Shown here: positions 1 to 14,695 of the stretch, piece by piece
Layout of the letters: every line of letters begins with the position of its first letter
Position numbering within the stretch: position 1 is the stretch's first letter
NCBI RefSeq assembly: GCF_902832885.1
Contig: NZ_CADFDK010000002.1
Coordinates: 434,001 to 498,000 of the forward strand
Length of the DNA stretch: 64,000 bases
Source of the DNA: Burkholderia seminalis DSM 23518
Lineage (GTDB): Bacteria > Pseudomonadota > Gammaproteobacteria > Burkholderiales > Burkholderiaceae
Reading direction: 5' to 3'
Notes under the pieces: model-generated
Seen by the model: the letters and a program-made list of their open reading frames with translations, nothing else
What the model was told of the DNA's origin: nothing
Databases searched by the model: none
Position numbers and translations under genes: made by a program

Positions 1-564
1 CAGCAGCACGTCGCGCAGTAGCGCGAAGCGGCCGAGCCCGTAGTGGCGCGCCATTTCGACGAGATCGCGCGGCGCATCGTGCACACCCGTGTACGCGGCC
101 AGCGCAACCGGGAAGAACACGGCCTTGCCGACGACGACGAGCTTCAACGGCTCGTCGACGCCGATCAGCAGGATCAGCAGCGGAATCAGCGTGAGCGTCG
201 GCACTTGCCGCAGCAGGTCGAAGGTCGGCCGCAGGTAGTCGGCGAACAGCCGGCTGCGTGCGAGCAGGATGCCGAACGCGGCGCCGCCGGTTGCGCCGAG
301 CGCGAAGCCGAGCGCGAGGCGATGCAGCGTGATCAGCAGGTTGTCGCGCAGTTCGCCGGTGTCGAGCAGCGTGCGCAGCGTCGCGGCGAGGCGTTCGGGC
401 GGCACGACGAGCTGCGGCGGAAACCAGCGCTGCGCGCTCGCGAGCCACCACAGCGCGGCGAACGTAAAGGGCGTGATCCACCACAGCGCATGTTCGCCGA
501 GCCGCGCGAGGCCGGGCAGGCGGATCGCGCGCCAGCCGTTCGGCGCGAGGGCGCGCATCGCCAT
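1..564 (-). CDS. ABC transporter permease, SsuC-like (3' end outside window)
   Basis: Inner-membrane permease of a sulfonate/nitrate/taurine-type ABC importer; only the first 188 codons lie in the window. The translation begins MAMRALAPNGWRAIRLPG and runs through hydrophobic segments, including a stretch ending LIPLLILLIGVDEPLK, the conserved cytoplasmic-loop region of SsuC-type permeases. The ATG at 564 overlaps the TGA of the upstream binding-protein gene (ATGA), so the two are translationally coupled. The transporter is the left arm of an organosulfur island. Substrate class is inferred from the SsuA-like partner and neighbours. The ATPase gene presumably lies beyond the left edge. Confidence 0.85.
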   Translation of the reverse strand, partial: MAMRALAPNGWRAIRLPGLARLGEHALWWITPFTFAALWWLASAQRWFPPQLVVPPERLAATLRTLLDTGELRDNLLITLHRLALGFALGATGGAAFGILLARSRLFADYLRPTFDLLRQVPTLTLIPLLILLIGVDEPLKLVVVGKAVFFPVALAAYTGVHDAPRDLVEMARHYGLGRFALLRDVLL

Positions 565-1670
565 CAGCGGCTCGCGACGCGCGCGGCATCGGCGCGCCAG
601 TAGCCGTCGAGACCAAGCTGCTTGAGCGCGGTCGCCACGAAGGTCGGCGCGAGCAGCGCGTTCACGTCGACCGGCACCGACGTCAGGCCGGCCTGGCGGC
701 TGTACGCGACGACATCGCGGTAGTGGCCGGTCAGCGCCGGCGTGAAGAGCGGCGTCCATTGCTCTTTCCACGGCGTCGATTCGTCCGCGTATTCGCGGCG
801 CACGACGCTTTCGGGCTGGCCCGACGCGCTCAGGATCTTCACGTACGCATCGCGGTTCTGCGGCTGCGAGATCCAGTGCGCGGCCCGCACGTAGGCCGTC
901 GCGACGAGCTGCGTGACGTCGGGGTAGCGCCGCACGAAATCGTCGGATGCCCACAGTTCGGCGCGCATCTTCCAGTCGTCGGGCGCGGTCTTGGTCGACC
1001 AGATGATCTTGCCGACGTTCTTGTCGACCAGCGAATACGCGTCGGATAGCGTAAAGAAGCCGTCGACGCGGCCGGCCGCGACGGCTGCCGCGCCGGCCTG
1101 CGGATCGAGGTTGTAGATCTTGAAGTCGGACAGCTTCAGCCCGTTTTCGGCGAGCAGCTTGCCGAACGTGACTTCCCACGGCCGGCCGCGATTGAGCGCG
1201 ATGCGCTTGCCTTTCAGATCGACGATCGACTTCGCGGTCGAGCCGGCCGGCACGACCAGATACGTGTTGCTGCCGGCGCCGCCCGGCACGATCAGGCGCG
1301 TGTGCGTGCCCGACGCGTTGACGACGACCGACGGCAGGTCGCCGTAGCCCGCGAAATCGATGCTGCCGTTCGTGAACGCCTCGTTGACGAGCGTGCCGAC
1401 CGCCGCGGTCGACACCGGCACCCATTGCAGCTTCACGTGCCGGGCGGCCAGCGCCTTCTCGAGCGACTTGTCGGCGTCGATCAGCGCGGATGCGCCGGCA
1501 TATTGCGTCTTGCCGCCGCTCGAGTACGCGACGACGGCAATGCGCACGACCTTGGGCGCGTCTTGCGCATGCGCGGCCGGTGCCGCGAGCGACGCGGCCG
1601 CCAGCGGTAGCACGGCGAGCAGCGCGCGCAGCAGGCGGCGCAGTGACGCGAGGGAGAGGGAGTATTTCAT
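564..1670 (-). CDS. Aliphatic sulfonate-type ABC substrate-binding protein (SsuA-like)
   Basis: Periplasmic binding protein of 368 residues. A clear Sec signal peptide ends near AAPAAHAQ (about residue 36). The mature part has the NMT1/SsuA layout, with a beginning like VVRIAVVAYSSGG and the segment DLKGKRIALNRG typical of lobe 1. It should deliver an alkanesulfonate or related anion to the coupled permease. It starts 31 bases after the stop of the DszB-like gene and probably shares its promoter. The sulfonate assignment is by family; the precise ligand cannot be read from sequence. A taurine or nitrate ligand remains possible. Confidence 0.85.
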   Translation of the reverse strand: MKYSLSLASLRRLLRALLAVLPLAAASLAAPAAHAQDAPKVVRIAVVAYSSGGKTQYAGASALIDADKSLEKALAARHVKLQWVPVSTAAVGTLVNEAFTNGSIDFAGYGDLPSVVVNASGTHTRLIVPGGAGSNTYLVVPAGSTAKSIVDLKGKRIALNRGRPWEVTFGKLLAENGLKLSDFKIYNLDPQAGAAAVAAGRVDGFFTLSDAYSLVDKNVGKIIWSTKTAPDDWKMRAELWASDDFVRRYPDVTQLVATAYVRAAHWISQPQNRDAYVKILSASGQPESVVRREYADESTPWKEQWTPLFTPALTGHYRDVVAYSRQAGLTSVPVDVNALLAPTFVATALKQLGLDGYWRADAARVASR

Positions 1671-1701
1671 GATGGTCCCGAACAGTGAACGAAAAAGGGG
1701 C

Positions 1702-2778
1702 TCACGCGCGTTTCTGCCACGACGGCCGCAGCACGTCGGCGAGCGGGCGCGGGTCGATCCAGTCGGCGACGTCGAAGTCGGTTTCCAGAAAGCCGTGCTC
1801 GCGCAGGAACGTCTTGAACTCGTCGAGCGCGGCGACCGATTCGTCGTCGAGATTGACGCCGAGATGGCGGTGCAGCTGGTTGCCGTACGCGGCTCGCACC
1901 CAGTCGATCGACGATGCGGTTTCGCCCGCCACGTAGTGAGCGGTTTCGTCGGGATGCGTGCTCGCCCATTCGCCGGCGGCGACCACGAGCTTCAGGAAGC
2001 CGGCGACGATGTCCGGATGGTTCGCGAGCACGTCCGCGTTGACGGTCAGCGGGCGCGGCGTGCCGTTGTTGTTGCGGATCGAGCGCTCCGGATGAAAGCC
2101 GATGTCGATCACGACGTGTGCGCCGATCAGTTGCGCGATCTCGAGACCCGTCGAGCCTTTCACGTAGATCGCGTCGACTTCGCCGCGCAGCAGCGCGCCG
2201 GCTTCGGCCGCATACAGCGCGCGGCTCGAAAAGCCGTGCGGCGACGCGAACAGGTTCGCCGCACGCGCGGGCCCGACGGCCTGCAGCGTGCGTGCGCGCA
2301 CGTCGACGAGCTCGACGTCGCGCGTGGTCAGTCCGTCGAGGCTCAGTGCATTGACGAAGCCGCGCAGCGCGGACGCGCGAAAGATGTCGATGCGGTCGTC
2401 GGGGCGGCTCGGAATCGCGATCCGGCGGCCGCGCAACGCCTTCACCGAGCGGATGCCCGACTCGGGCCGCGCGAGGATCAGTTGCGATTCGTCGACCCAC
2501 GACAGCCCGATCACGCGCGTGTTGGCGTCGTTCGAGCGCGCCCACATCGCGGGGATGCTGCCGCCCTGGCGGAACGACTGCGCGAGCGTGTGATCGCTGA
2601 TCGATGACACGTCGTGCCGCGTGGCGCCGCGCGGCGAGCGGATCGCGACGCCGTCGGCCGACGTCTCGCCGTTGAGCCAGCCGAGATGCACGGCGATGCC
2701 GAGCGGCGTCGGCACGGGCGATCGGGCGTACCAGAACGTCTGCTGCTTGTCCGATGACGAATCGGGCCTGTCTGTCAT
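1702..2778 (-). CDS. DszB-like protein 1, catalytic Cys and His replaced
   Basis: 358-residue member of the DszB/NMT1-type fold and paralog of the products at 4441-5487 and 7524-8588. The shared N-terminal block is WYARSPVPTPLGIA here. The position matching DszB Cys27 is Ser20. The position of DszB His60 is Ile60, while the Arg70 equivalent in SFRQGG is kept. No signal peptide is visible, so it is neither an ordinary periplasmic binding protein nor, by residues, an active desulfinase. The start at 2778 is chosen because the following residues align with the paralogs' N-termini. First gene of the leftward arm. A sensing, scaffolding or alternative-substrate role is speculation. Confidence 0.8.
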   Translation of the reverse strand: MTDRPDSSSDKQQTFWYARSPVPTPLGIAVHLGWLNGETSADGVAIRSPRGATRHDVSSISDHTLAQSFRQGGSIPAMWARSNDANTRVIGLSWVDESQLILARPESGIRSVKALRGRRIAIPSRPDDRIDIFRASALRGFVNALSLDGLTTRDVELVDVRARTLQAVGPARAANLFASPHGFSSRALYAAEAGALLRGEVDAIYVKGSTGLEIAQLIGAHVVIDIGFHPERSIRNNNGTPRPLTVNADVLANHPDIVAGFLKLVVAAGEWASTHPDETAHYVAGETASSIDWVRAAYGNQLHRHLGVNLDDESVAALDEFKTFLREHGFLETDFDVADWIDPRPLADVLRPSWQKRA

Positions 2779-2845
2779 GTGTGAGATTCCCCTGTCTGGG
2801 TAAGCGTGGTCGATGCGCGGTGTCGCACGCGCGGCCGTTCCACGT

Positions 2846-2861
2846 TGCAAGTTCCGGGCCA
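2846..2861 (-). promoter_or_regulatory. Sigma-54-type promoter for the leftward arm
   Basis: On the minus strand the sequence reads TGGCCCGGAACTTGCA. This matches the -24/-12 consensus TGGCACGRNNNTTGCW with exact GG-to-GC spacing. The predicted transcription start near 2835 gives a leader of roughly 57 bases before the ATG at 2778. It faces away from the promoter at 3132-3147, with the activator-type sites between them. Seen by eye only, not by a matrix scan. Confidence 0.7.
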
Positions 2862-2935
2862 ATGAGCGGAAACGGCCGGGCGGCACGCGGCGCGGGCATC
2901 CCGGGCGCTGCGCGGCGCGACGGCCGGCGCAACGC

Positions 2936-3006
2936 CTGTTGCGTGAGCAACAGTCGCGTCGAGTGCTGTTGCGCGTGCAGCACCGGTGTGTCGTGCGCAA
3001 CAGCAC
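2936..3006. promoter_or_regulatory. Cluster of TGT-N10-ACA enhancer-type sites
   Basis: Four copies of the heptamer CTGTTGC or its complement lie within 68 bases. They form a perfect dyad at 2936-2953 (CTGTTGC-GTGA-GCAACAG) and a 12-bp perfect inverted repeat, 2963-2974 with 2995-3006. Read as 16-mers they give TGT-N10-ACA sites at 2937-2952 and 2987-3002 and a near site at 2967-2982, with centres 30 and 20 bp apart. TGT-N10-ACA is the classic site type of sigma-54 enhancer-binding proteins such as NifA. The cluster sits 70-150 bp upstream of both divergent sigma-54-type promoters. Confidence 0.65.
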
Positions 3007-3131
3007 GGCACGGATTCGCTTTCGGGATGCCGGCACCGCGCGGCGCGTGTTCGTCGATGGCCGTCGACGCCCGGCCGGCAAGGCATCGCGCGTGCTCGGC
3101 GGCCGCGCCGCACGTCAGCAGGCGTGCGCGT

Positions 3132-3147
3132 TGGCACACCGCGTGCT
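3132..3147 (+). promoter_or_regulatory. Sigma-54-type promoter for the monooxygenase operon
   Basis: TGGCACACCGCGTGCT has the GG (3133-3134) and GC (3145-3146) elements at the correct spacing for a -24/-12 promoter. The -24 half is perfect (TGGCAC) and the -12 half is TGCT rather than TTGC. The predicted start near 3157 leaves about 60 bases of leader before the ATG at 3218. Confidence 0.6.
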
Positions 3148-3217
3148 TTACAGCGCTGCATACGCGCGGCACGCCGGTGCCGCACGCAATCCGAACGGGC
3201 CGACAAGGAGAATCCCG

Positions 3218-4390
3218 ATGGCTGTTGAATTTCTGTGGCGCCTGCCGATGCACGGCGATGGCCGGCGCGCACACGACCTGCATACGCGCGGCGAATGGAA
3301 TCGCCAGCGCGCGTCGCGCGTCGCGCCGAAAGTCGACGACGACGATTTCGGCTACATCGACTATCTGTCGCAGGTGGCGCGCGCGGCCGACATCGCCGGT
3401 TTTCACGGCGCGCTGATTCCGATCTTCCGCTTCACCGAGGAACCGTGGGTCGTCGCGGCGGCGCTGGCGCGCGAGACGCGCCGGCTGCGGCTGCTGATCG
3501 CGCTGCAGCCGCATTTCGTGCATCCGGTTTATGCGGCCCAAATGGCCGCGAGCCTGCAGCGGATCAGCCGCGGCCGCGTCGAGTGGAACGTCGTCACGGG
3601 CGGCGGCGGTCCCGACCAGCGCGCGTACGGTGACTTCATCGATCACGACAGCCGCTATGCGCGCACCGACGAATTCCTCGACGTCGTGAAGGGCGTCGCG
3701 GCCGGCGCGCCATTCTCGTTCGACGGCCGCTTCTACCGCGTCGAAGCCGGCGGGCTGCTGCCGCCGCTGAGCGGCCAGAAGCCGCCGCGGATTTATCTGG
3801 CCGGCGCGAGCGACGCTGCGCTCGCGGTCGCGGCGAAACACGGCGACGTGCACCTGAGCTGGGGCGAGCCGCTCGCGAAGCAGAAGGAAGTGATCGACGC
3901 GGCGCGCCGCGCGCTCGACCGGCAGAACGCCGAGCGCGACCTGCGCTTCGGCATGCGCATCGACATCCTCGCGCGCGAAACCGAGGAACAGGCGTGGGCC
4001 GAGCTGCGGCAGATGTTCGCCACGGTGGGCGACGCGACGCGTGCCGGTTTCGGCGGGCGCGGCGAATCGTCGGAATCGGTCGGCGCGAAGCGCCAGTTCG
4101 CATTGCACCAGGGCAACACGCAGCACTTTGACGACCTGATCGTCGGCCCGAACCTGTGGGCAGGAATGTCGCAGATCCGCGGCGGCCCCGGCTGCGTGAT
4201 CGTCGGCAGCCACGAGCAGGTGGCCGAGCGGCTCGCGGAATACGTCGACATCGGCGTATCGACGTTCATCCTCGCGAGCAACCCGCATCTCGAAGAGGCG
4301 TACCGCGTGGGCGAGGAAGTGCTGCCGCTCGTCGACGGCGCGCTGAACGCGCGCGGCACGCAGGCAGCGCTGCGCGTGGCCGGCGCCTGA
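3218..4390 (+). CDS. LLM-class flavin-dependent monooxygenase (SsuD-like)
   Basis: 390-residue FMNH2-dependent monooxygenase of the luciferase-like family, close to alkanesulfonate monooxygenases. Visible family blocks are GRVEWNVVTGGGGPDQRAYGD (about residue 125), YARTDEFLDVVKG, and the C-terminal GSHEQVAERLAEYVDIGVSTF. It would insert oxygen beside a C-S bond so that sulfite or a sulfinate is released. The ATG follows AAGGAG at 3205-3210 with ideal spacing. First gene of a seven-gene rightward operon. Two DszB-like proteins in the same operon suggest that it feeds a sulfinate intermediate to them. Dimethyl sulfone- or dibenzothiophene-type substrates cannot be told apart from sequence. Confidence 0.88.
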   Translation: MAVEFLWRLPMHGDGRRAHDLHTRGEWNRQRASRVAPKVDDDDFGYIDYLSQVARAADIAGFHGALIPIFRFTEEPWVVAAALARETRRLRLLIALQPHFVHPVYAAQMAASLQRISRGRVEWNVVTGGGGPDQRAYGDFIDHDSRYARTDEFLDVVKGVAAGAPFSFDGRFYRVEAGGLLPPLSGQKPPRIYLAGASDAALAVAAKHGDVHLSWGEPLAKQKEVIDAARRALDRQNAERDLRFGMRIDILARETEEQAWAELRQMFATVGDATRAGFGGRGESSESVGAKRQFALHQGNTQHFDDLIVGPNLWAGMSQIRGGPGCVIVGSHEQVAERLAEYVDIGVSTFILASNPHLEEAYRVGEEVLPLVDGALNARGTQAALRVAGA

Positions 4391-4412
4391 GCGCGGCGGC
4401 GTGCCGCCGCGC
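4391..4412 (+). other. Intercistronic GC-rich hairpin
   Basis: GCGCGGCGGC and GCCGCCGCGC form a perfect inverted repeat directly after the monooxygenase stop codon and 28 bases before the next ATG, with no T tract. It may protect the monooxygenase message or tune readthrough inside the operon. Function is inferred only from position. Confidence 0.4.
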
Positions 4413-4440
4413 ATCAACGACAACGACAAGGATACTCACC

Positions 4441-5487
4441 ATGACGACACTCGCTGCGCAGGCCACGGCCTGCGACGCACTCTGGTACACGCGCTGCCCG
4501 GTGCCGACCGCGCTCGGCATCGCCGTGCATCGCGGCTGGTTCGACGAAGAGTTCGGGCCGGACGGCATCGTGCTGAATTCGCTGCAGGAGACGGCCGATG
4601 CCGACAAGCGCGAATCGCACTTCGATCACAGCCTGCCGCACTCGTTCCGGCAGGGCGGCAACATTCCCGCGCTGTGGGCGCGGGCACGCGGCGCCGATAC
4701 GCGCGTGATCGGCCTGTCGTGGACCAACGAATTCCAGGCGATCGTCACGCTGCCCGAGCGCGGCATTCGCACGACGCGCGATCTGCGCGGCCGGCGGCTC
4801 GGATTGCCGCGCCATCCGATCAGCATCGACTTCTGGCGTGCGGCCGCCCTGAAGGGCTTCCTGAGCGCGCTCGAACTGGAAGGGCTCGGCCACGGCGACG
4901 CCGAATGGATCGACCTGCCCGACACGCGCGAGCGCCGCACCGGGCCAGCCTCGTTCACGCGCGGCCCGCACGAGTACGGACTCGAGATCGCGGCGCTCGT
5001 GCGCGGCGACGTCGACGCGGTGTTCGTGAAGGGCGTCGCCGGGCTGGAGACCGTGCACCTGATCGACGCGCAGGTCGTCATCGATCTCGGCGCGCATCCC
5101 GATCCGCTGGTGCGGATCGGCAACGGCACGCCGCGCACGCTGACCGTCGATCGCGCGCTGATCGATACGCGCCCCGATCTCGTGAGCCGGTTCCTGTCGG
5201 TCGTGGTCGGCGCGGGCGACTGGGCCGCGCGCCATCCGGCCGAGACGGTCGCCTATATCGGCCGCGAAACGCATGCCTCCGACGAGTGGGTGCGCTATGC
5301 ATACGGCGGGGACGTGCACCGCCATCTGGAGACCGGGCTCGCGCCGACGTCGATCGACGGTCTGGTCGCGTTCAAGGATTTTCTCGTCGAATGGGGCTTT
5401 CTCGAACGCGATTTCGACGCGCGCGCGTGGATCGACCCGGCGCCGTTCACGCAGATCGACCGGCATCGCCATGCGTGGGTCGCGTAG
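4441..5487 (+). CDS. DszB-like desulfinase-family protein 2
   Basis: 348 residues, annotated generically in this family as an ABC binding protein, but it lacks a signal peptide. It carries the DszB active-site pattern: Cys19 in WYTRCPVPTALG, then His60 and Arg70 in HFDHSLPHSFRQGG. The His-to-Arg spacing of ten residues equals that of DszB (His60, Arg70), whose Cys27 is the nucleophile that releases sulfite from an aromatic sulfinate. I infer a cytosolic sulfinate C-S hydrolase acting after the upstream monooxygenase. The ATG at 4441 is preceded by AAGGA. Substrate is unknown. Confidence 0.78.
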   Translation: MTTLAAQATACDALWYTRCPVPTALGIAVHRGWFDEEFGPDGIVLNSLQETADADKRESHFDHSLPHSFRQGGNIPALWARARGADTRVIGLSWTNEFQAIVTLPERGIRTTRDLRGRRLGLPRHPISIDFWRAAALKGFLSALELEGLGHGDAEWIDLPDTRERRTGPASFTRGPHEYGLEIAALVRGDVDAVFVKGVAGLETVHLIDAQVVIDLGAHPDPLVRIGNGTPRTLTVDRALIDTRPDLVSRFLSVVVGAGDWAARHPAETVAYIGRETHASDEWVRYAYGGDVHRHLETGLAPTSIDGLVAFKDFLVEWGFLERDFDARAWIDPAPFTQIDRHRHAWVA

Positions 5488-5520
5488 CGCGCCGCGGCGC
5501 GTCATTGCAAGGAGTCGAAC

Positions 5521-6321
5521 ATGACAGGGCTGACGATCGAATACGGCGTGCCGCCGGCGCGCCGGCACGTGGCGCGCGCCGCGCCGCGCGCGGCGGTAGT
5601 CGCGCGACCTTCGCCGGTGGCGCCGTCCGCGCATGCGGACAAGCGGCCGGCGCCGGCGAGCGGTTGGCGCGGCGCGGGCGCGATTGCACTGGCCGTCGCG
5701 GCGCTGCATGCGGGCGTCGTGCTGCTGGCCGCGCGTCCGGCGGCCGCACCGCCGGTGCAACCGCCGCGGCCGCTGCCGATGACGGTGGAACTGACGCGGC
5801 CGCCCGAACCGCTGCCGCAGGCCGCGCATCCGCCGCCGATCGTGCCGCCGAAACCGCTGAAGCAGGCGCCGACGCCGCCGAAGCCGCAGATACCCCGCGC
5901 GGCCGTTCCGCATCCGGCAGCGGCACCGGCACCGTCCGCCGTGCCGCAGGTGGCGCGCGAGGCTGCCCCTGCGCCCGCGCCAGCGGCACTGGCCGTCGCA
6001 ACCCCGGCGCCGGCACCCGCACCCGCCGCACCCGTGCGTGAAACCGCGCCGATCGGCGACGCGGCGTACCTGCGCAACCCGGCGCCCGACTATCCGGCGT
6101 TCGCGCAGGACCAGGGCTGGGAAGGGCGCGTCGTGCTGCGCGTGCACGTGCTCGCGAGCGGCACGCCCGATTCCGTCGAGGTCCGCACGAGCAGCGGCCG
6201 CCGCGTGCTCGACAACGCGGCGGTGGCCGCCGTGAAGCGCTGGACGTTCGTGCCCGCGAAGCGCGGCGACGAAGCGGTCGACGGCTGGGTCAACGTGCCG
6301 ATCGATTTCAAGCTGGGCTGA
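5521..6321 (+). CDS. tonB: TonB energy-transduction protein
   Basis: 266 residues. An N-terminal cytoplasmic extension of about 50 residues precedes a single membrane anchor (AIALAVAALHAGVVLLAA, about residues 55-73). A long proline/alanine-rich periplasmic spacer follows (about 80-170), then the TonB C-terminal domain (YPAFAQDQGWEGRVVLRVHV, then AVAAVKRWTFVPAKRG). It couples proton-motive force to an outer-membrane receptor. AAGGAG lies 5' of the ATG. It is placed between two DszB-like genes and next to exbB and exbD, so this is a dedicated system, most likely for the receptor at 9995-12302. Confidence 0.92.
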   Translation: MTGLTIEYGVPPARRHVARAAPRAAVVARPSPVAPSAHADKRPAPASGWRGAGAIALAVAALHAGVVLLAARPAAAPPVQPPRPLPMTVELTRPPEPLPQAAHPPPIVPPKPLKQAPTPPKPQIPRAAVPHPAAAPAPSAVPQVAREAAPAPAPAALAVATPAPAPAPAAPVRETAPIGDAAYLRNPAPDYPAFAQDQGWEGRVVLRVHVLASGTPDSVEVRTSSGRRVLDNAAVAAVKRWTFVPAKRGDEAVDGWVNVPIDFKLG

Positions 6322-6362
6322 CCCGACGGGCGGCTCGCCATATTTTTCAAGGAACTCACATC

Positions 6363-7079
6363 ATGAACGGTATCCCGACCACCTTCATCGTCCAGGGCGC
6401 GCTCTGGCTGCTCGTCGTCTTCTCCGTCGTCACGTGGACGTTGATCGTCGTGAAGGCGATCCAGAGCCTGCGGTCGAGCGCGCGCAACCGGCGTTACGTC
6501 AGCGCGTTCTGGGCCGCGAACAGCTTTCACGACGCGGCCGCGCTCGACAGCGCGAACAGCCCGGTCGGCGAACTCGCCGCGACGGGCTTCGACGCGCTGC
6601 GGCGTGCCGACGAGAGCAGCGCACACGATCTGGAACACAGCTGGAGCCGCCACGACCTGCTCGAACGCCATCTGCGGCAGCAGATCCACAATGCGCGCCG
6701 GCGCGAGGAAGCGGGGCTCGCGGTACTCGCGTCGATCGGCAGCACCGCGCCGTTCGTCGGCCTGTTCGGCACCGTGTTCGGCATCATCCACGCGCTGACC
6801 GCGATCACGCACAGCGCATCGGCGAGCATCGACGTGGTCGCCGGGCCGATCGGCGAGGCGCTCGTCGCGACCGGGATCGGCATCGCGGTCGCGGTGCCTG
6901 CCGTGCTCGCCTACAACTTCTTCGTGCGCCGCGTGAAGGCCGCATCGGCCGACCTCGATGCGTTCGCAACCGACTTCGTGACGCTCGCGCAGAAGGCCGG
7001 CTTCCGCGTGCCGGTGACGGTACCCGCGGCCGCGCCGGCGCGCCGTGCCGGCGATACCCGTCAGGAGGCGTTCGCATAA
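6363..7079 (+). CDS. exbB: ExbB, MotA/TolQ/ExbB-family proton channel
   Basis: 238-residue inner-membrane protein. TM1 is near the N-terminus (FIVQGALWLLVVFSVVTWTLIV), followed by a large cytoplasmic loop and two TM segments in the MotA/ExbB domain (STAPFVGLFGTVFGIIHAL and ATGIGIAVAVPAVLAYNFF). It forms the proton channel that energises TonB. Its TAA stop overlaps the exbD ATG (TAATG), giving tight coupling. Confidence 0.93.
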   Translation: MNGIPTTFIVQGALWLLVVFSVVTWTLIVVKAIQSLRSSARNRRYVSAFWAANSFHDAAALDSANSPVGELAATGFDALRRADESSAHDLEHSWSRHDLLERHLRQQIHNARRREEAGLAVLASIGSTAPFVGLFGTVFGIIHALTAITHSASASIDVVAGPIGEALVATGIGIAVAVPAVLAYNFFVRRVKAASADLDAFATDFVTLAQKAGFRVPVTVPAAAPARRAGDTRQEAFA

Positions 7080-7489
7080 TGGCCTTCTCGTCCTCCTCCG
7101 ACAACGACGACGTGCTCAGCGAAATCAACATCACGCCGCTCGTCGACGTGATGCTCGTGCTGCTCGTCGCCTTCATCGTCACCGCGCCGCTGCTCAACAA
7201 CGCGGTGCACGTGACTCTCCCGAACACAGTCGCGACCGCGCCGGCCGACCGCAAGCCGAACGTCACCGTGAGCGTCGACGCCAAGGGCGTCGTGTATCTC
7301 GACAAGCGTGCGGTCGCGCTCGCCGCGGTACCGGCCGAGCTGGCCGCGCTGAAGGCGGGCCGGCCCGACGTCGCGCTCGACCTGCAGGCGGACGAGCACG
7401 TGCCGTACGGCACCGTCGCGAAGCTGATGGCCGCGATCGAGCACGCGGGCATCACGCGGCTGTCGGTGCTGACCGCGCCGCGCGGCTGA
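7079..7489 (+). CDS. exbD: ExbD, TonB-system proton channel subunit
   Basis: 136 residues with the ExbD signature EINITPLVDVMLVLLVAFIV. The Asp in the single TM segment (LVDVM) is the proton-carrying residue of the family. A periplasmic domain ends in HAGITRLSVLT. It works with ExbB and TonB encoded just upstream. The start at 7079 overlaps the exbB stop. Confidence 0.93.
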   Translation: MAFSSSSDNDDVLSEINITPLVDVMLVLLVAFIVTAPLLNNAVHVTLPNTVATAPADRKPNVTVSVDAKGVVYLDKRAVALAAVPAELAALKAGRPDVALDLQADEHVPYGTVAKLMAAIEHAGITRLSVLTAPRG

Positions 7490-7523
7490 CGCGCTCTTCA
7501 CGACTTCCTTTGCGAATGCATCC

Positions 7524-8588
7524 ATGAGCACCACGGCTTCACACAACGTTCAATCGATCTGGTACACGCGCTGTCCGGTGCCGACGCCGCTCGGCATCGC
7601 CGCGCATCTCGGCTGGCTCGACAGCGAATTCGCCGGCGACGGCATCACCGTGCGCGCGCTGCAGGAAAGCCAGCACGCGGCGCTGCATCACGCGCACGTC
7701 GATCATTCGCTCGACAACGCGTTCCGGCAGGGCGGCAGCATTCCCGCGCTGTGGGCACGCGCGGCCGGCGCCGATACGCGCGTGGTCGCGCTGACCTGGG
7801 TCGACGAGGCGCAGGCGATCGTCGCGTTGCCGGAAGCCGGCCTCACGCGACCGAAGGACCTGCGCGGGCGCCGCATCGGCTTGCCGCGTCGCGACGGCGA
7901 GCGCATCGACATCTTTCGCGCGGCGGCGCTGCGCGGCTTCGTCAGCGCGCTGTCGCTCGACGGGCTCGGCCCCGGCGACGTCGAATGGGTCGACGTGCCG
8001 GCGTCGAACCTGCGCGCGCCCGTGTCGACGCCCGCGACCCGCGACGCGGCATTCAGCCACCCCGCGAGCCTGTCGAGCCGGCGGCTCTATGCGGCCGAAG
8101 CGGCCGCGCTCGTGCGCGGCGATGTCGATGCGATCTACGTGAAGGGCTCGCTCGGGCTGGAGACCGCGCACCTGATCGGCGCGCGGACGGTCGTCGACAT
8201 CGGCTTTCATCCCGATCCGCAGATCCGCATCAACAACGGCTCGCCGCGTCCGCTGACCGTCAATGCGGCGACGCTCGAGCGCCATCCCGGCATCGTCAGC
8301 CGCTTCCTCGCGCGCGTGACCGATGTCGAAGGCTGGGCGCGCGAGCACGAACACGAAGTGCTCGGCTATCTCGGCCGTGAGACGGGCTCGGGCCATGACT
8401 GGCTGCGGCTGGCGTACGGCGCCGACGTGCACCGGCGGTTGCGCACCGATCTCGACGAAGCGTCGATCGCCGCGCTGGACGATTTCAAGCGCTTCCTGGT
8501 GGCGTGGCGGTTCCTGCCCGCCGACTTCGACGTGCGCGCGTGGATCGACCGGCGTGCGCTCGACGGCATCGCGACTTTGTCGCGGTGA
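7524..8588 (+). CDS. DszB-like desulfinase-family protein 3
   Basis: 354 residues, paralogous to the products at 4441 and 1702. It keeps the catalytic pattern, with Cys17 in WYTRCPVPTPLG and His58 plus Arg68 in HVDHSLDNAFRQGG. No signal peptide, so a cytosolic enzyme is more likely than a binding protein. Compared with copy 2 it has extra residues before the conserved LSSRRLYAAEAAALVRGDVDAIYVKG block, a block shared with copy 1. Copy 3 is therefore closer to the catalytically altered copy than copy 2 is. It may act on a second sulfinate. Its TGA overlaps the GTG of the following MFS gene. Confidence 0.78.
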   Translation: MSTTASHNVQSIWYTRCPVPTPLGIAAHLGWLDSEFAGDGITVRALQESQHAALHHAHVDHSLDNAFRQGGSIPALWARAAGADTRVVALTWVDEAQAIVALPEAGLTRPKDLRGRRIGLPRRDGERIDIFRAAALRGFVSALSLDGLGPGDVEWVDVPASNLRAPVSTPATRDAAFSHPASLSSRRLYAAEAAALVRGDVDAIYVKGSLGLETAHLIGARTVVDIGFHPDPQIRINNGSPRPLTVNAATLERHPGIVSRFLARVTDVEGWAREHEHEVLGYLGRETGSGHDWLRLAYGADVHRRLRTDLDEASIAALDDFKRFLVAWRFLPADFDVRAWIDRRALDGIATLSR

Positions 8589-9802
8589 GCGCGACGGCAC
8601 GCGTCGCCGACGCATGGCGGCGCGAGCGCTTCACCGGCGGCTTCATGCTGCTGGCGCTCGCGAGCGGCACGACGATCAGCATGGCGCAGCTCGCGACGAC
8701 GCTGTATGCGCTCGCGCTCGGCGTCGACAGCGCGCGGCTCGGCATCATCGCCGCGATGGAACCGCTCGGCATCGCGCTGATGACGCTGCCGGCCGGGCTG
8801 CTGGTCGCGCGCTACGGCGCGCGGCGCGTGTACTTCGCCGCGAGCATGGGGCCGATGCTGCTCAATCTCGTCGTGCCGTTTACCGGCGCGTGGCCGCTGA
8901 TCGCGCTCACGCAGGCGCTGATCGGACTGTGCATCCCGTTCCGGATCGTGTCGATCAACGGCGTATTCCTCGCGCGTCTCGCGCGGATCGGCCTCGCCCG
9001 CGCGGGCTGGTATCGCGCGGCCATGACGGTCGGAACGGGCATGGCGGGGCCCTGGCTCGCCAGCTGGCTGATCGAGGCGCATGGCGCGGTCGCGACCTTC
9101 TGCGCGGCGTCGGCGAGCTTCGCGGGCATGGCCTGGTTCAGCCGCCTGCTGCTCGGCGACGCGGAGCCGCCGCCGCGCGGTGCGCAACCCGACGCCGGTG
9201 GCCTGCGTGCGTTGCTCGCGCTTGCGTGGAGCCGCGACGTGCGCGAGCAACTTGCGCTGGAAGCGGTGAACAGCGCGACGCGCTCGCTCGTCGGCACCTA
9301 TACGGTCGTGCTCGCCATCCAGTATCTGAAGTTGCCGCAGTCGGGCGCCGTCGCGCTGCTGACCCTGCAGGGCGTCGTCGCGGTGATCGCGCTGTTCGGG
9401 CTGGGGCATGTCGCGCAGCGGATGACGGAGCGCCGCTGCCATGCCCTTGGCCTCGCAGGCGGCGTGGCCGGGCTGCTCGCGTTCGGCCTCGCGCACGACG
9501 CGTGGATCGTCGGCGCGGGGCTCGCCGCGTTGTGCGCCGGGTCGTCGCTGGTGCATCTCGTCAACATGCAGCATCTCGGCCGCCACCCGGCCGACAAGAG
9601 CCGGGTGTCGAGCCTCTACAACCTCGCGTCGATGACGGGGGCGTTCTGCGGCCCGTTGGCCTGCAGTGCGCTCGTGCCGGTCGTCGGGTTGCGGGCCGTG
9701 TTTCTGTGCTGGCTGCCCGTCGTCGTGCTGGTTGCGTTCGCGTTGCGCTTCGCCGATGGGCGGCGCGACGCGATGCGGCCGCTGCCTGAAAAGTTGTCCT
9801 GA
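8585..9802 (+). CDS. MFS transporter
   Basis: 405 residues from a GTG start at 8585 that overlaps the stop of the DszB-like gene (GTGA). About 12 hydrophobic segments are visible, with the MFS loop motif in ARYGARRVYF between TM2 and TM3. Last gene of the sigma-54-type operon. A likely job is export of the desulfurised carbon skeleton or of a toxic sulfite-related product, or uptake of substrate. The direction of transport is not readable from sequence. Confidence 0.8.
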   Translation: MSATARVADAWRRERFTGGFMLLALASGTTISMAQLATTLYALALGVDSARLGIIAAMEPLGIALMTLPAGLLVARYGARRVYFAASMGPMLLNLVVPFTGAWPLIALTQALIGLCIPFRIVSINGVFLARLARIGLARAGWYRAAMTVGTGMAGPWLASWLIEAHGAVATFCAASASFAGMAWFSRLLLGDAEPPPRGAQPDAGGLRALLALAWSRDVREQLALEAVNSATRSLVGTYTVVLAIQYLKLPQSGAVALLTLQGVVAVIALFGLGHVAQRMTERRCHALGLAGGVAGLLAFGLAHDAWIVGAGLAALCAGSSLVHLVNMQHLGRHPADKSRVSSLYNLASMTGAFCGPLACSALVPVVGLRAVFLCWLPVVVLVAFALRFADGRRDAMRPLPEKLS

Positions 9803-9813
9803 AGATCGTCGTC

Positions 9814-9874
9814 GCCGGTGTTGCGTGACAAGCAGTTTGCTTCCCTCCACAGATGCGCATGCAGCAACACCGGC
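9814..9874. promoter_or_regulatory. Inverted repeat with enhancer-type half-sites upstream of the TonB receptor
   Basis: GCCGGTGTTGC at 9814-9824 and its exact complement GCAACACCGGC at 9864-9874 are 39 bases apart. Both contain the TGTTGC/GCAACA half-site found at 2936-3006, and the left copy shares the ten-base string TGTTGCGTGA with the site at 2937. The sites lie about 75-130 bp upstream of the predicted start of the sigma-54-type promoter at 9919. Confidence 0.6.
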
Positions 9875-9918
9875 ACCATGCGCGCGCCGGAAGCCCCGTG
9901 CGACGGGCCTGTCGATGC

Positions 9919-9934
9919 TGGCATCCGAATTGCA
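9919..9934 (+). promoter_or_regulatory. Sigma-54-type promoter of the TonB receptor
   Basis: TGGCATCCGAATTGCA matches TGGCACGRNNNTTGCW with the correct GG/GC spacing and a perfect TTGCA -12 half. Predicted start near 9945, about 50 bases before the ATG at 9995. It is separate from the upstream operon but appears to answer to the same activator type. Confidence 0.7.
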
Positions 9935-9994
9935 TTAGAGAACCCGTGCGTAGCGCGCACATGCGTTCAACCGATCAAACAGGATGACTCATCG

Positions 9995-12302
9995 ATGTTC
10001 AGGAAAAAACTAATCGTCACCGCGCTGGGGGGGACTGCTGACGGGCGGCGCCGTATCGTTGCCGGCGTGGGCAGAAGATGGCGCGGCGGCGGGGACGCCG
10101 GACGCGCAGCCGGCGCAACAGGCACCGGACGATGCGACCGCGCCGAAGCCGGCGCGTGCGAGCCGCGGCACGGCCGCACGAGAAACGAACCTCGGCACGG
10201 TGACCGTGACGGCGCGCCGGCGCAAGGAAAGCATCCAGGACGTGCCGGTCGCGGTGAGTGCGCTGAGCGGCGATGCGATCAAGAACAACGAACTGCGCGT
10301 GATCAACGACGTGACGAAGTACGTGCCGAACTTCACCGGGCAATCGACCGAGGGCCGCGAGCGGCCGCGCTGGTTCCTGCGCGGGGTCGGCAGCAACGAT
10401 CCGTCGGACCTGTCGTTGAGCCCGATCGGCGTGTACTTCGACGACGTGTACATCAACAGCGTGTTCGGGCAGGGTTTTCCGCTGTTCGACCTCGATCGCA
10501 TCGAGGTGCTGCGCGGGCCGCAGGGCACGCTGTGGGGCAAGAACACCGTGGGCGGTGCGCTCAGCATCACGTCGCAGAAGCCGACCTTCGATGTGAGCGG
10601 CTATGGCAAGCTCGGGATCGGCCAGTACAACAGCCGGCTCGCGGAGGCCGCGATCGGCGGGCCGATCGGCAAGAACGACGTGCTGGCCGCGCGCGTGTCG
10701 GTGTATCACGAGAATGCCGACAGCTTCTACACGAACACCGTTCAGCAGGGGCGCTTCGGCGGCTTCCACGACAATGCGGTGCGCTTCCAGGTGCTGGCCG
10801 TGCCGACGTCGGACACCGACTTCCTGTTCAACATCCACGGCCGAAACTATACGGGCGGGGGCAATGCGTGGCACGCGGAAGGCGCGGGGCCGCGCGGCAC
10901 GAACCAGTTCGGGTTCGTCGGCTCCACCGATCCGTACACGGTGTCGCTCAATGCGCCGTCGAGCGATCACATCTCGACCTGGGGCACGTCGCTCACCGCG
11001 CACTGGCGCATCAACCCGGCCGTGACGCTGACGTCGATCACCGCGTTCGAGGGGCTGCACCGCTGGTACCAGGACGACGAGGATTATTCGGCATTCGACG
11101 CGGCGCGCTCGCACGACCGCCTGTCGAGCCGCCAGTTCTCGCAGGAATTCCGGCTCGAATCGCCGCAGGGCGACCGGCTGAGCTGGCTGGTCGGCACGCA
11201 CCTGTTCACCGAGCAGCTCGCCGAGCAAGGCGCGGGCGGCAGCCCGAGCAGTTCGCCGTCGCCGGCGTACTACCACCTGACCGATCTCTCGCAGCACACG
11301 CAGAGCGCGGCGATCTTCGGCAGCATCAAGTACCGCTTCACCGACCGCTTCAACGTGACGGGCGGGCTGCGCTACACGGTCGAGCGCAAGACCATCAACC
11401 TGACGGGGCTGCAGGGTACCGGTAACGTGACGTTCAGCGATCCGAACAGCTGGTGGTCGCCTTCGTCGGTGTCGTCGCCGCTCGCGGTCAGCGCGCAGCA
11501 GAACCAGACCAACACGTGGCGCGCACCGACCTGGGACCTGACGCCCGAATATGCGCTCAGCAACAACGTGCGCGCGTATTTCCGCTACGCACGCGGCTTC
11601 CGTTCGGGCGGCTACAACGGCAACGCCTATACGCAGAGCACCGTGTCGACCGTATCGCCCGAGTACCTGACCGATTACGAGGTCGGCATCAAGAGCGAGT
11701 GGTTCGACAAGCGGCTGATCGTCAACGCGAGCGTGTTTCATTACGACTATCGCGACATCCAGGTATTCGCGCTCGCACCGAACCCGTTCGGCGGGCCGCC
11801 GGTGTCGACGCTGTCGAACGCGGGGCAGGGACGCGCGGACGGCTTCGAGCTGGAGCTGAAGGCGCAGCCGGTCAACAGCCTGTACCTGTTCGCGAACCTC
11901 GGGATGCTGAACACGCGCTACACGGAATTCCGCTACGTGCCGACGGCCGTCGGCAATTCGTTCGCGCGTTCACCGCATACGACGCTGAACGCGGGCTTCG
12001 ACTATCGCGTGCCGGTGCCGTTCGGCACGCTGACGGCGGGCGGCGACGTGAACTACCGCAGCCGCGAGTATTTCAGCGCGACGCGGCAGACGATGCCGCA
12101 ACTGTGGCAGGGCGGTTACACGGTGCTGAACGCGCACGTGTCGTACACGACGCCGAACCAGAAGTACATCGTGACGGGCTACGTGACGAACCTGACGAAC
12201 AAGGTCTACAAGAAGCTCGAGCTGTTGCCGTCATATGGTGCCTATCCGGTGCTGTACGGCGATCCGCGCACGGTCGGAATCACGCTGACCGCGAAGATCT
12301 GA
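9995..12302 (+). CDS. TonB-dependent outer-membrane receptor, frameshifted in the signal-peptide region
   Basis: The main frame (from about 10034 to 12302) encodes a full receptor. It has a plug domain with TVTVTARRRKESIQDVPVAVSAL and IEVLRGPQGTLWGKNTVGGAL, a long beta-barrel, and a C-terminal strand ending VGITLTAKI. The natural start is ATG 9995 (MFRKKLIVTALGG). A run of seven G at 10027-10033 shifts that frame relative to the rest; six G would give a smooth signal peptide continuing LLTGGAVSLPAWAED. Without slippage, translation from 9995 fails; only a weak TTG at 10059 is in frame, and it would lack a signal. This could be phase variation, a recent mutation or a base error. It probably imports the organosulfur substrate across the outer membrane. 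Confidence 0.85.
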
Positions 12303-12383: not shown

Positions 12384-13343
12384 TCAGATCAGCAGCGATA
12401 CCGTCCTGAACAGCGCGAGATCCTCCTTGCGCGCCGAGCGCGCGTGCCGGCGGATCACGTACAGCAGGCATTCGATGAAGCAGCGTGCGGCATCGCTCAG
12501 CGTGCTGCTGCGGCGCGTGACGATCCCGAGGTCGCGCGGCTCGAACGTTTCCGTCAGCGTCAACGGCCGCATCCGTCCGCCGAACGGCGGTACCGCCGCG
12601 AGGATCGTCGGGCACCACGTGCACATGTCGGCCTGTTCGAGCATCGTCTGCAGCATCGCGACCGACTGCGCGCGCACGATGCGCCGCTCGTCGATCCGCG
12701 CGCCGTGGCGCGTGAACAGGTAGTCGACGAGCGCGGCCTGCCCGTCGGCCGCGAAATTCAGCACCCAGTCGTGGTCGAGCAGATCGTGGATCGACCGTGC
12801 GCGTTCGCGCGGATGGCCGGCGCGCACCATGACCGCCGTGTCGTAGCGCAACATTGGCTCGAACGCGAATTCCTGCGTGCCGCCCGGCTGCACGTGTCCG
12901 AGCGCGAAGTCCATGCTGCCGTCGCGCAACAGCGGCTGCGCAACGGCCATCAGCGCTTCGTAGAGTTCGAGTCGCACGTCGGGCATCCGCTCGCGAAAAC
13001 GCAGTACCGTTTCCGCGAGGAACGTCACCGTGAGCCACGGTGTGACGCCGACGCTCAGCCGGCCCTCGACGCGGCCGCGCATGCGCTCGAGATCGCTCCG
13101 CGCATGCTCGAGCTGCTTCAGCACGAGCTTCGCATGCGTGAGCAGCGTTTTCCCGTAGTCGGTGAAGCCGATGCCTTCCGGCGCACGCACGAGCAGCGGC
13201 AGGCGCTCGCTCGCTTCCAGCTCGCGCAGCGCACGCGTGACGGCCGCTTGCGACAGCCCGAGCGCGCGTGCCGCACCACGGATGCTGCCGGCCTCCGCGC
13301 TCGCGACGAGTGCCTGCAACTGATGCAGCTTGATGGTGCTCAT
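12384..13343 (-). CDS. LysR-family transcriptional regulator
   Basis: 319 residues. The N-terminal winged helix-turn-helix (LHQLQALVASAEAGSIRGAARALGLSQAAVTRALRELE, residues 6-43) is followed by the effector domain from about residue 90 (GRLSVGVTPWLTVTFLAETVLRFRERMPDV). It is divergent from the M20 amidohydrolase-binding protein-porin unit and so is its likely regulator, with an inverted repeat at 13356-13372 between them. An effect on the adjacent TonB receptor, with which it is convergent, is less likely. Confidence 0.9.
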   Translation of the reverse strand: MSTIKLHQLQALVASAEAGSIRGAARALGLSQAAVTRALRELEASERLPLLVRAPEGIGFTDYGKTLLTHAKLVLKQLEHARSDLERMRGRVEGRLSVGVTPWLTVTFLAETVLRFRERMPDVRLELYEALMAVAQPLLRDGSMDFALGHVQPGGTQEFAFEPMLRYDTAVMVRAGHPRERARSIHDLLDHDWVLNFAADGQAALVDYLFTRHGARIDERRIVRAQSVAMLQTMLEQADMCTWCPTILAAVPPFGGRMRPLTLTETFEPRDLGIVTRRSSTLSDAARCFIECLLYVIRRHARSARKEDLALFRTVSLLI

Positions 13344-13355
13344 GACGCGATACCC

Positions 13356-13372
13356 GACAACGAAAGGTTGTC
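13356..13372. promoter_or_regulatory. Putative LysR operator
   Basis: GACAAC-GAAAG-GTTGTC is a perfect 6-bp dyad in the intergenic region between the divergent LysR gene and the amidohydrolase gene. This is the expected place for an autoregulatory LysR site. Confidence 0.5.
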
Positions 13373-13479
13373 ATCATAACGAAACCGCGGCTGTTCGCCT
13401 GGATTTTCGCTGCATACGATCCGGTCACGATCGATCATTCGGGCGATCGGCAACCGGAACGTGTCAGGGGGAATCAGGG

Positions 13480-14649
13480 TTGGAACGGAACCATATCCAT
13501 CCGGAAATATCGGCGATCGAGGCGGAGATGATCGCGCTGCGGCGCAGGCTGCATGCGCATCCGGAGCTCGGCTTCGACGAGCATGCGACGAGCGCCATCG
13601 TCGCCGATTGCCTGACAACATGGGGTTATCAGGTCACGCGCGGGCTCGGCGGCACCGGCGTGGTCGGCACGCTGACGCGCGGCCCCGGGAAACGGCTCGG
13701 GTTGCGCGCGGACATGGATGCGCTGCCGATCCGCGAAACGACCGGGCTGCCGCATGCGAGCCGGCATGACGGCGTGATGCACGCGTGCGGCCACGACGGC
13801 CATACGGCGATGCTGCTCGCGGCGGCCCGCTGTCTTGCCGGGCGGGCGCGCTTCGCCGGCACGCTGAACCTGATTTTCCAGCCGGCCGAGGAAGGGCTCG
13901 GCGGCGCGAAGCGGATGATCGACGACGGACTGTTCGTACGATTTCCGTGCGACGCCGTGTTCGCGATGCACAACGTGCCAGGCTTGCCGGTCGGTGTGCT
14001 CGGTTTCTGCGACGGCCCGGCGATGGCGTCGGCCGACGAGGTGCGCGTGCGCGTGATCGGGCGCGGCGGGCACGGCGCCGCGCCGCATACGACGATCGAC
14101 CCGGTGGTCGTGTGCGCGTCGATCGTGATGGCGTTGCAGACGGTCGTGTCGCGCAACGTGAATCCGCAGGAGCTGGCGATCGTTTCGGCCGGCTCGATCC
14201 ACGCGGGAACCGCATCGAACGTGATTCCGTCCCACGCGGACCTGACGCTCAGCGTGCGTGCGTTGTCGCCGGACGTACGTGCGCTGCTGGAGCGGCGCAT
14301 CCGCGAGATCGTGCTCGGACAGGCCGCGAGCTATGGCGCGACGGCCGAGATCGACTACCGGCACGACTATCCGGTGCTCGTCAATCACGCGGTGCAGACG
14401 GCCTTCGCGCGCGAGGTGGCGCGCGAATGGGGCGGCGATGCGGCGCTGATTCCGCATCTGCGGCCGATCGCGGCGAGCGAGGATTTCGCATTCATGCTGG
14501 AGGAATGCGCCGGCAGCTACCTGTCGATCGGCAATGGCGACGGGGCGTCCGGATGCGGGCTGCATCACCCGGGCTACGACTTCAACGATGCCTGCCTCGC
14601 GACGGGCGCGAGCTACTGGATCGCACTCGCCGAGCGATATCTCGGATGA
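13480..14649 (+). CDS. M20-family amidohydrolase / N-acyl amino acid hydrolase
   Basis: 389 residues from a TTG at 13480 preceded by an AGGGGGA purine run. If TTG is wrong, the first in-frame ATG is at about 13528. Binuclear-metal motifs are in order: LRADMDALPI, VMHACGHDGHTAML, FQPAEEGLGGAKRMI and SEDFAFM. The dimerisation domain contains GHGAAPHTTIDPVV. It hydrolyses an N-acyl amino acid such as hippurate- or aminoacylase-type substrates. It heads a unit with an amino acid-type binding protein and a porin, which suggests import and deacylation of an acylated amino acid. The exact substrate is unknown. Confidence 0.87.
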   Translation: MERNHIHPEISAIEAEMIALRRRLHAHPELGFDEHATSAIVADCLTTWGYQVTRGLGGTGVVGTLTRGPGKRLGLRADMDALPIRETTGLPHASRHDGVMHACGHDGHTAMLLAAARCLAGRARFAGTLNLIFQPAEEGLGGAKRMIDDGLFVRFPCDAVFAMHNVPGLPVGVLGFCDGPAMASADEVRVRVIGRGGHGAAPHTTIDPVVVCASIVMALQTVVSRNVNPQELAIVSAGSIHAGTASNVIPSHADLTLSVRALSPDVRALLERRIREIVLGQAASYGATAEIDYRHDYPVLVNHAVQTAFAREVAREWGGDAALIPHLRPIAASEDFAFMLEECAGSYLSIGNGDGASGCGLHHPGYDFNDACLATGASYWIALAERYLG

Positions 14650-14695
14650 CGCGGCCGCACGATTTCGATTCACGATTCACACAAGGAGACAGGCA

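Follow-up and report, generated by a model that had tools for sequence, protein, structure and literature searches.

Gene content and conservation of the island

The left end of a 64,000-nucleotide stretch of Burkholderia seminalis DSM 23518 (G000:C2:434001-498000, hereafter the window; draft genome of 7.97 Mb in 55 contigs) carries a set of genes that an earlier note had read as a self-contained block for organosulfur capture and desulfurization, spanning 564..12302. Pfam and NCBIfam comparisons find every family named there, each in its place, but the block proved larger: it extends about 3.2 kb beyond the left window edge, where it adds a class II aldolase, a sigma-54 activator, and two SsuC-type permeases. 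In locus L004, whose positions minus 10000 give those of the window, the aldolase (about 7028-7708, plus strand) and the activator (7829-8947, plus strand), both recognized by Pfam, are followed by permease B (reading frame 8941-9822, left of the window; Pfam) and permease A (9749-10564), a reading frame of which only the start end falls inside the window (1..564, minus strand). Also on the minus strand are an SsuA-family solute-binding protein, SBP (564..1670; Pfam), which scores 104 bits against the NCBIfam model SsuA_fam, under the cut-off of 163.5, and DszB1 (1702..2778), the first of three DszB-type proteins. The SsuA/SsuC-type importer claimed earlier is borne out as a binding protein with permeases, both permeases lying mostly to the left of the window.

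Diverging from DszB1 on the plus strand are an LLM flavin monooxygenase (3218..4390; Pfam), DszB2 (4441..5487; Pfam), TonB (5521..6321; TonB_C, E 1e-22), ExbB (6363..7079; MotA_ExbB, E 3.8e-32), ExbD (7079..7489; ExbD, E 9.6e-29), DszB3 (7524..8588), an MFS carrier whose start codon is uncertain (8585..9802; MFS_1, E 2.7e-19), and a TonB-dependent receptor (9995..12302). The TonB, ExbB, and ExbD matches score above the Pfam gathering thresholds. For ExbB and ExbD (6363-7489), though they adjoin TonB, the TolQ and TolR models outscore the ExbB and ExbD models, and no NCBIfam equivalog cut-off is reached. In two other loci the TonB alignment is split into two pieces in different frames (L047 9056-9795 and L062 9005-9795).

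The earlier note had proposed a search for the same gene order in other genomes, and a single order was found in all 15 Burkholderia islands read whole (14 genomes and B. arboris; the contig-split islands of five genomes were left out): aldolase, activator, permease B, permease A, SBP, and DszB1, with a divergent arm of LLM, DszB2, TonB, ExbB, ExbD, DszB3, MFS, and receptor. Such retention makes the island more than a chance grouping, and the notion of a putative organosulfur uptake and desulfurization block travelling as a unit is supported, although most of the Burkholderia copies are 92 to 99% identical and hence not independent. A natural short form exists in genome G047 (locus L057), in which the receptor directly follows DszB2 and TonB, ExbB, ExbD, DszB3, and MFS are absent. 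A DszB3-like gene (E ≤ 1e-30) occurs in 23 of 65 genomes of the genus, 20 of which have three matches, and a DszB1 relative (E ≤ 1e-60) in 48 of 398 genomes of the family. The window DszB3 is 97% identical to B. arboris and B. cenocepacia records in a plasmid collection; a mobile-plasmid origin was rejected, as these two matches are replicons of 3.2 and 3.5 Mb.

Of the 506 confirmed stretches in a scan of named genomes, the best 79 loci were used to assess wider spread. Five or more of 12 partner parts are present in 24 of these 79 loci, among them Paraburkholderia, Massilia, Duganella, Jeongeupia, one Sphingomonas, and methylotrophs. Other Sphingomonas and Asticcacaulis loci hold receptor, SBP, permeases, MFS, and DszB, and in many rhizobial and Comamonas loci DszB-type genes are the only island parts. 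Five duplicate records (L107, L108, L110, L112, and L138) were dropped from the 24-sequence scan, the tree, and the locus-piece counts with their dyad scan, and were kept in the 79-locus counts, including the 24 of 79, the 29-sequence dyad set, and the 32-row LLM count.

Several observations concern neighboring genes in these loci. Tandem DszB-type genes with Cys27 lie on the symbiotic plasmid pSymA of Sinorhizobium meliloti (L061 6706-9999) and likewise in Ensifer (L063), and no further island part was matched near either tandem. Several islands, namely L095 (14110-18381), L126 (6070-9772), and L132 (6018-9726), carry close to their DszB genes a pair of ABC exporters in which membrane part and ATPase are fused. 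Many Burkholderia have an M20 gene next to the island; Massilia, Duganella, and Jeongeupia have a different one (36 to 38% identical) between receptor and LLM.

A putative sigma-54 regulon

The activator is a 372-residue protein with the Pfam domain Sigma54_activat near its N terminus and no sensor domain. Between DszB1 and LLM lie two dyads of the form TGTTGC-N4-GCAACA, the first perfect (2937..2952) and the second with one mismatch (2967..2982), and their spacing of exactly 30 bp is kept in all 29 sequences compared (24 distinct ones: 19 Burkholderia and 5 Paraburkholderia-like; L116, L117, and L120, which have both genes in another arrangement, stand outside this set). A weak third dyad with two mismatches (2987..3002) is absent from some relatives. 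On each side the pair is flanked by a sigma-54-like promoter with one to three mismatches across the 29 sequences, TGGCCCGGAACTTGCA toward DszB1 (2846..2861, minus strand) and TGGCACACCGCGTGCT toward LLM (3132..3147, plus strand). In a motif-blind 16-bp scan of the 24 distinct sequences, the two promoters and two dyads took ranks 1 to 4, with identities of 0.92 to 0.95 against a mean of 0.62.

Only two perfect dyads occur in the draft genome, one in this region and one upstream of the aldolase. The latter shows at most one mismatch in all 19 Burkholderia loci and two mismatches in all 4 Paraburkholderia-like loci; the 3 other loci yielded no such dyad. A sigma-54 site there (at most two mismatches) recurs in 23 of 26 loci. 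Upstream of the receptor, TGGCATCCGAATTGCA (9919..9934, plus strand) has a counterpart with at most two mismatches in every locus but the short form L057 (23 of 24). Dyads and sigma-54 promoters thus precede three units, namely aldolase-activator, DszB1-SBP-permeases, and LLM-DszB2-TonB-ExbB-ExbD-DszB3-MFS, and the receptor forms a fourth unit with a conserved promoter. In Massilia and Duganella the LLM promoter is preceded by dyads of related sequence, also 30 bp apart, and the Methylovorus locus has perfect dyads. Together, the paired dyads and four conserved sigma-54 promoters would mark one regulon.

Not all of the site statistics favor such a regulon. No dyad was found near the receptor promoter. 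Across the genome, dyads with at most one mismatch number 22, compared with 15 for a control pattern, so that single one-mismatch sites mean little. In the window, the sigma-54 consensus alone is found 10 times where 10.6 are expected, and dyads with at most two mismatches 5 times where 2.2 are expected, a count that 6 of 100 shuffles reach. What is conspicuous is the pairing: dyad-promoter pairs number 5 in 74 kb, all inside the island, with none in 60 shuffles, but the thresholds for such pairs were chosen post hoc, once the sites were known.

The neighborhood of the activator's paralogs points to what the regulon may serve. The two closest in the genome (59 and 56%) have genes scoring above the SfnG cut-off at distances of 1.3 and 3.9 kb, and the next (50%) has an SsuD-like gene 0.1 kb away. 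A sensor-less activator, dyads, and -24/-12 promoters are all present, as in an SfnR-type sigma-54 regulon, a likeness of activator architecture, sites, and paralog neighborhood. Because the paralogs adjoin SfnG and SsuD-like genes, an SfnR-like role of the activator in sulfur starvation is likely, and we regard a sulfur-scavenging regulon as very probable. The dyad was also considered as a general site of SfnR-like activators, and this was rejected, as none with at most two mismatches occurs in the sequence pieces surrounding these SfnG and SsuD-like genes.

The same neighborhood bears on a different account of the island, as a route for using a sulfonated compound as carbon source; the aldolase and neighboring M20 gene would then do the main work, and sulfur release would be incidental. 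The aldolase does recur in many islands, and M20 genes lie near or within them. However, the activator's nearest paralogs sit near sulfur-scavenging SfnG genes, no M20 match was found in the examined pieces of the Paraburkholderia-like islands, and the aldolase, by our reading of the alignment, retains two histidines of the metal site, with a Gly at the aligned position of the third. We judge this account highly unlikely.

Beyond the receptor, a LysR gene (12384-13343) faces an M20 amidohydrolase gene and a gene for an amino-acid-type binding protein (region 12384-15478). It was rejected as the island's regulator, being found in 12 of the 15 islands (once in part) and facing the M20 gene.

Desulfinase-type proteins and the flavin monooxygenase

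The three DszB-type proteins (1702-2778, 4441-5487, and 7524-8588) are of the NMT1 type and 47 to 57% identical to each other, and DszB3 matches DszB in the PDB (2de2) over nearly its full length (residues 11-340, E 6.6e-18). In DszB, C27 is the proton donor, H60 and S25 stabilize the transition state, and an RXGG motif is conserved; a C27S mutant is inactive and an H60Q mutant about 17-fold slower, according to PMC6100217. Aligned to 2de2, DszB2 has C27, H60, and R70 in 17 of 17 copies, and DszB3, which has all three in the window, keeps C27 and R70 in 16 of 16 and H60 in 15 of 16. DszB1 has A25, S27, I60, and R70 in 17 of 17 Burkholderia copies, so that the catalytic C27 and H60 and the Ser or Thr partner at 25 are all absent; its relatives elsewhere have S27 with a varying residue 60, and F70 in two loci. 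The earlier claim that three DszB-family proteins release sulfite therefore holds for family membership and for the catalytic residues of DszB2 and DszB3, and all three as catalysts was rejected on account of DszB1.

DszB1 was also rejected as a decaying pseudogene. Computed from ungapped matches only, the median ratio of nonsynonymous to synonymous substitution (dN/dS) against the window copy is 0.093 for DszB1 (16 of 16 relatives usable), like the 0.103 of DszB2 (11 of 16) and the 0.101 of DszB3 (15 usable); LLM has 0.040. Since Cys27 and His60 are missing and yet purifying selection acts on it, DszB1 may be described as a conserved pseudo-desulfinase, predicted to be inactive as a desulfinase.

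Absence of Cys27 is not confined to DszB1. Among the members of the family in the best 79 of 506 loci, 21 of 134 lack it. A single loss was rejected: a 159-row tree, made by a quick method with long branches flagged and thirteen near-identical Burkholderia loci left out, requires at least 6 changes at this position, even though the 16 rows of DszB1 itself fall into a single clade (support 99) that groups with the DszB3 set. When 107 locus pieces were compared, a Cys27-less member was present in 34 of 60 pieces with several DszBs, a figure inflated by near-identical Burkholderia, and in 1 of 47 with a single one. Among these 35 pieces, L095 and L097 have the Cys27 partner in the adjoining piece, and none was seen for L161. 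Given the counts for pieces with several and with one DszB, the Cys27-less member is apparently a companion of an active-type desulfinase, L161 excepted. A second Cys27-less kind, with proline at position 27, is seen in L095 (18501-19532) and L097 (18677-19696).

DszB1 could be a domesticated dead desulfinase returned to binding, which would hold a sulfinate or sulfonate in the cytosol and either report it to the sensor-less activator or guide it from the permeases. The pseudo-enzyme would then be the missing sensor, in a family that is related to solute-binding proteins and in which Cys27-less partners may have arisen several times beside active desulfinases. We consider this role doubtful, and put it forward as a conjecture.

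The order of reactions is less certain than the regulon. The earlier note had LLM oxidize a sulfonate, sulfone, or related compound to a sulfinate; for a sulfonate this runs in the wrong direction, as such a compound is already more oxidized than a sulfinate. An LLM-DszB scheme would work for a sulfone, whereas a sulfonate would give sulfite directly. The latter is the basis of a competing explanation, in which LLM alone, like SsuD and MsuD, would split sulfite off a sulfonate, with no sulfone involved and the DszBs binding ligands or desulfinating a side product. Among PDB matches, LLM is indeed closest to the sulfonate enzymes (MsuD 270 bits and SsuD 249, against 103 for SfnG and 49 for DszA), which is evidence against a sulfone substrate. 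The SsuA-like importer points the same way, as does the standing of LLM as the best-conserved island protein between genera, at 73 to 80% identity in Massilia, Duganella, and Jeongeupia against 60 to 65% for the DszBs. Also unfavorable to a sulfone is that no sulfone-making enzyme was identified among the island genes, with no search aimed at DszC.

LLM nevertheless departs from SsuD. It scores 315 bits against the SsuD equivalog TIGR03565, far short of the cut-off of 518, and 154 against the SfnG equivalog TIGR04021, with a cut-off of 383 (both NCBIfam). At C54, R226, H228, R297, and Y331, which we take to be the functional positions of SsuD, it has T, R, D, R, and N, so that the two arginines are kept and the other three residues replaced; T, D, and N stand there in 32 of 32 rows of at least 73% identity (27 without duplicates). 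DszB2 and DszB3, moreover, retain their catalytic residues. Direct release of sulfite by LLM is unlikely, and because two DszBs keep catalytic residues under selection, we narrowly favor passage from sulfone to sulfinate followed by desulfination. The full order from sulfone through sulfinate to sulfite is tentative, and we would put it at a little under an even chance.

Uptake, proposed route, and known systems

In the window, the receptor's start and signal-peptide codons (9995-10070) are out of frame with its open body (10059-12302), with the break near a run of G, a point against the scheme proposed below. Of 16 Burkholderia relatives, 15 show an open frame from the corresponding start; for the remaining one (L056) the alignment starts further in, yet the upstream frame is open too. 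The break may be an assembly slip, phase variation, or a real loss.

TonB-ExbB-ExbD sets frequently serve iron uptake, and among solved structures the receptor comes closest to siderophore and pesticin receptors, so that an iron or siderophore uptake block might merely be situated among sulfur genes. These receptor matches are weak, however, at 66 bits at best, and the TonB-ExbB-ExbD set lies between DszB2 and DszB3 in all 15 islands. The receptor promoter is of the same sigma-54 class as the others, and in the short form the receptor directly follows DszB2. We hold an iron function to be most improbable.

The description of the island as self-contained did not survive. An ABC ATPase encoded at a different transporter locus of the same genome (C13) served as query, and at E ≤ 1e-10 it matched nothing in L004, the window, or the Burkholderia island pieces, some of which are short, nor in Jeongeupia or those Paraburkholderia-like islands that share this layout (L094, L111, L112, L114, and L115). 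Of an SsuABC importer, the locus has a binding protein and two permeases, with no SsuB-type ATPase found beside them. An ATPase at 53 to 62% identity is present in Massilia, Duganella, Sphingomonas, Asticcacaulis, and Methylovorus loci, and at 52 to 54% in the rearranged islands L095, which shares its genus code with P. fungorum, and L097. Neither a flavin reductase gene nor one of the DszC type was noted among the identified island genes, though no dedicated search for these two was made. What stands of the earlier interpretation is a dedicated organosulfur uptake and desulfurization unit; self-containment, sulfonate oxidation, and three active DszBs do not.

Under sulfur limitation, the activator, itself perhaps under CysB as SfnR is, would fire the sigma-54 promoters. 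The receptor, powered by its own TonB-ExbB-ExbD, would carry a bulky organosulfur compound across the outer membrane, and the SsuA-type protein, two permeases, and an ATPase encoded elsewhere in the genome would bring it into the cytosol. FMNH2-dependent LLM would cleave a C-S bond, most simply of a sulfone to yield a sulfinate, from which DszB2 and DszB3 would release sulfite. DszB1, without catalytic Cys and His, may bind such a ligand and not cleave it, and the aldolase and MFS carrier may handle the carbon remainder. This combination of regulon, uptake, and reaction order, drawn from sequence comparison, is our best explanation of the island and as a whole reasonably probable.

Parts of this plan are known; the literature was covered mainly through titles, abstract openings, and excerpts, with few subscription papers. 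In Pseudomonas, the atsACBR-sftR-atsK-sftP cluster likewise combines a TonB-dependent receptor with an SsuABC-like importer and with enzymes that release sulfur, but these enzymes are sulfatases under a LysR regulator, and the excerpt mentions no TonB-ExbB-ExbD of its own, DszB, LLM, or sigma-54 circuit (PMC3596284). The sfn/msu dimethylsulfone system of Pseudomonas shares SfnR-type regulator genes near FMNH2-dependent, C-S-cleaving LLM enzymes; unlike the island, it has MsuC oxidize the sulfinate further instead of desulfinating it, and no receptor, TonB set, or DszB is mentioned in the excerpt (PMC8234197). The dsz (4S) pathway of Rhodococcus has, as the excerpts describe it, the chemistry proposed here, with LLM-type C-S cleavage to a sulfinate and then the DszB desulfinase (PMC8557817, PMC6100217). 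The 4S set of DszA, DszB, and DszC is nonetheless not what the island holds: LLM is of the SsuD class and its DszA match reaches only 49 bits, no DszC was identified (it was not searched on its own), and outer-membrane uptake and several DszBs are, as far as those excerpts go, particular to the island.

Two further systems resemble the island in part. In a chromosomal group of Rhodococcus IGTS8, a DszB-like protein, "SsuA-DszB," is listed beside SsuD and Ssu importer proteins (SsuA/SsuB), apparently among proteins raised on dibenzothiophene; the excerpt has one DszB-like protein, and the organism, being Gram-positive, has no receptor or TonB set (PMC8557817). The ssuABCDE systems ssu1 and ssu2 of Xanthomonas citri pair an SsuA-type importer with SsuD monooxygenase, but have their own ATPase and, for ssu2, SsuE, with no TonB found in the text of that paper and no DszB in the excerpt (PMC4501297). 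Within the literature so covered, no title or abstract opening names the full set of parts, a sigma-54 circuit belonging to such an island, or a conserved partner that lacks Cys27.

Most soil sulfur is organic, as the excerpt of PMC3596284 states. TonB-driven organosulfur uptake is little mapped, and the island offers one recurrent, testable unit that joins a receptor and its own TonB-ExbB-ExbD to a C-S-cleaving flavin enzyme, desulfinases, and a private sigma-54 switch. DszB2 and DszB3, presumably active, beside a conserved DszB1 predicted to be inactive provide new starting points for desulfurization enzymes, and DszB1 would be a natural counterpart, retained by selection, of the laboratory C27S mutation.

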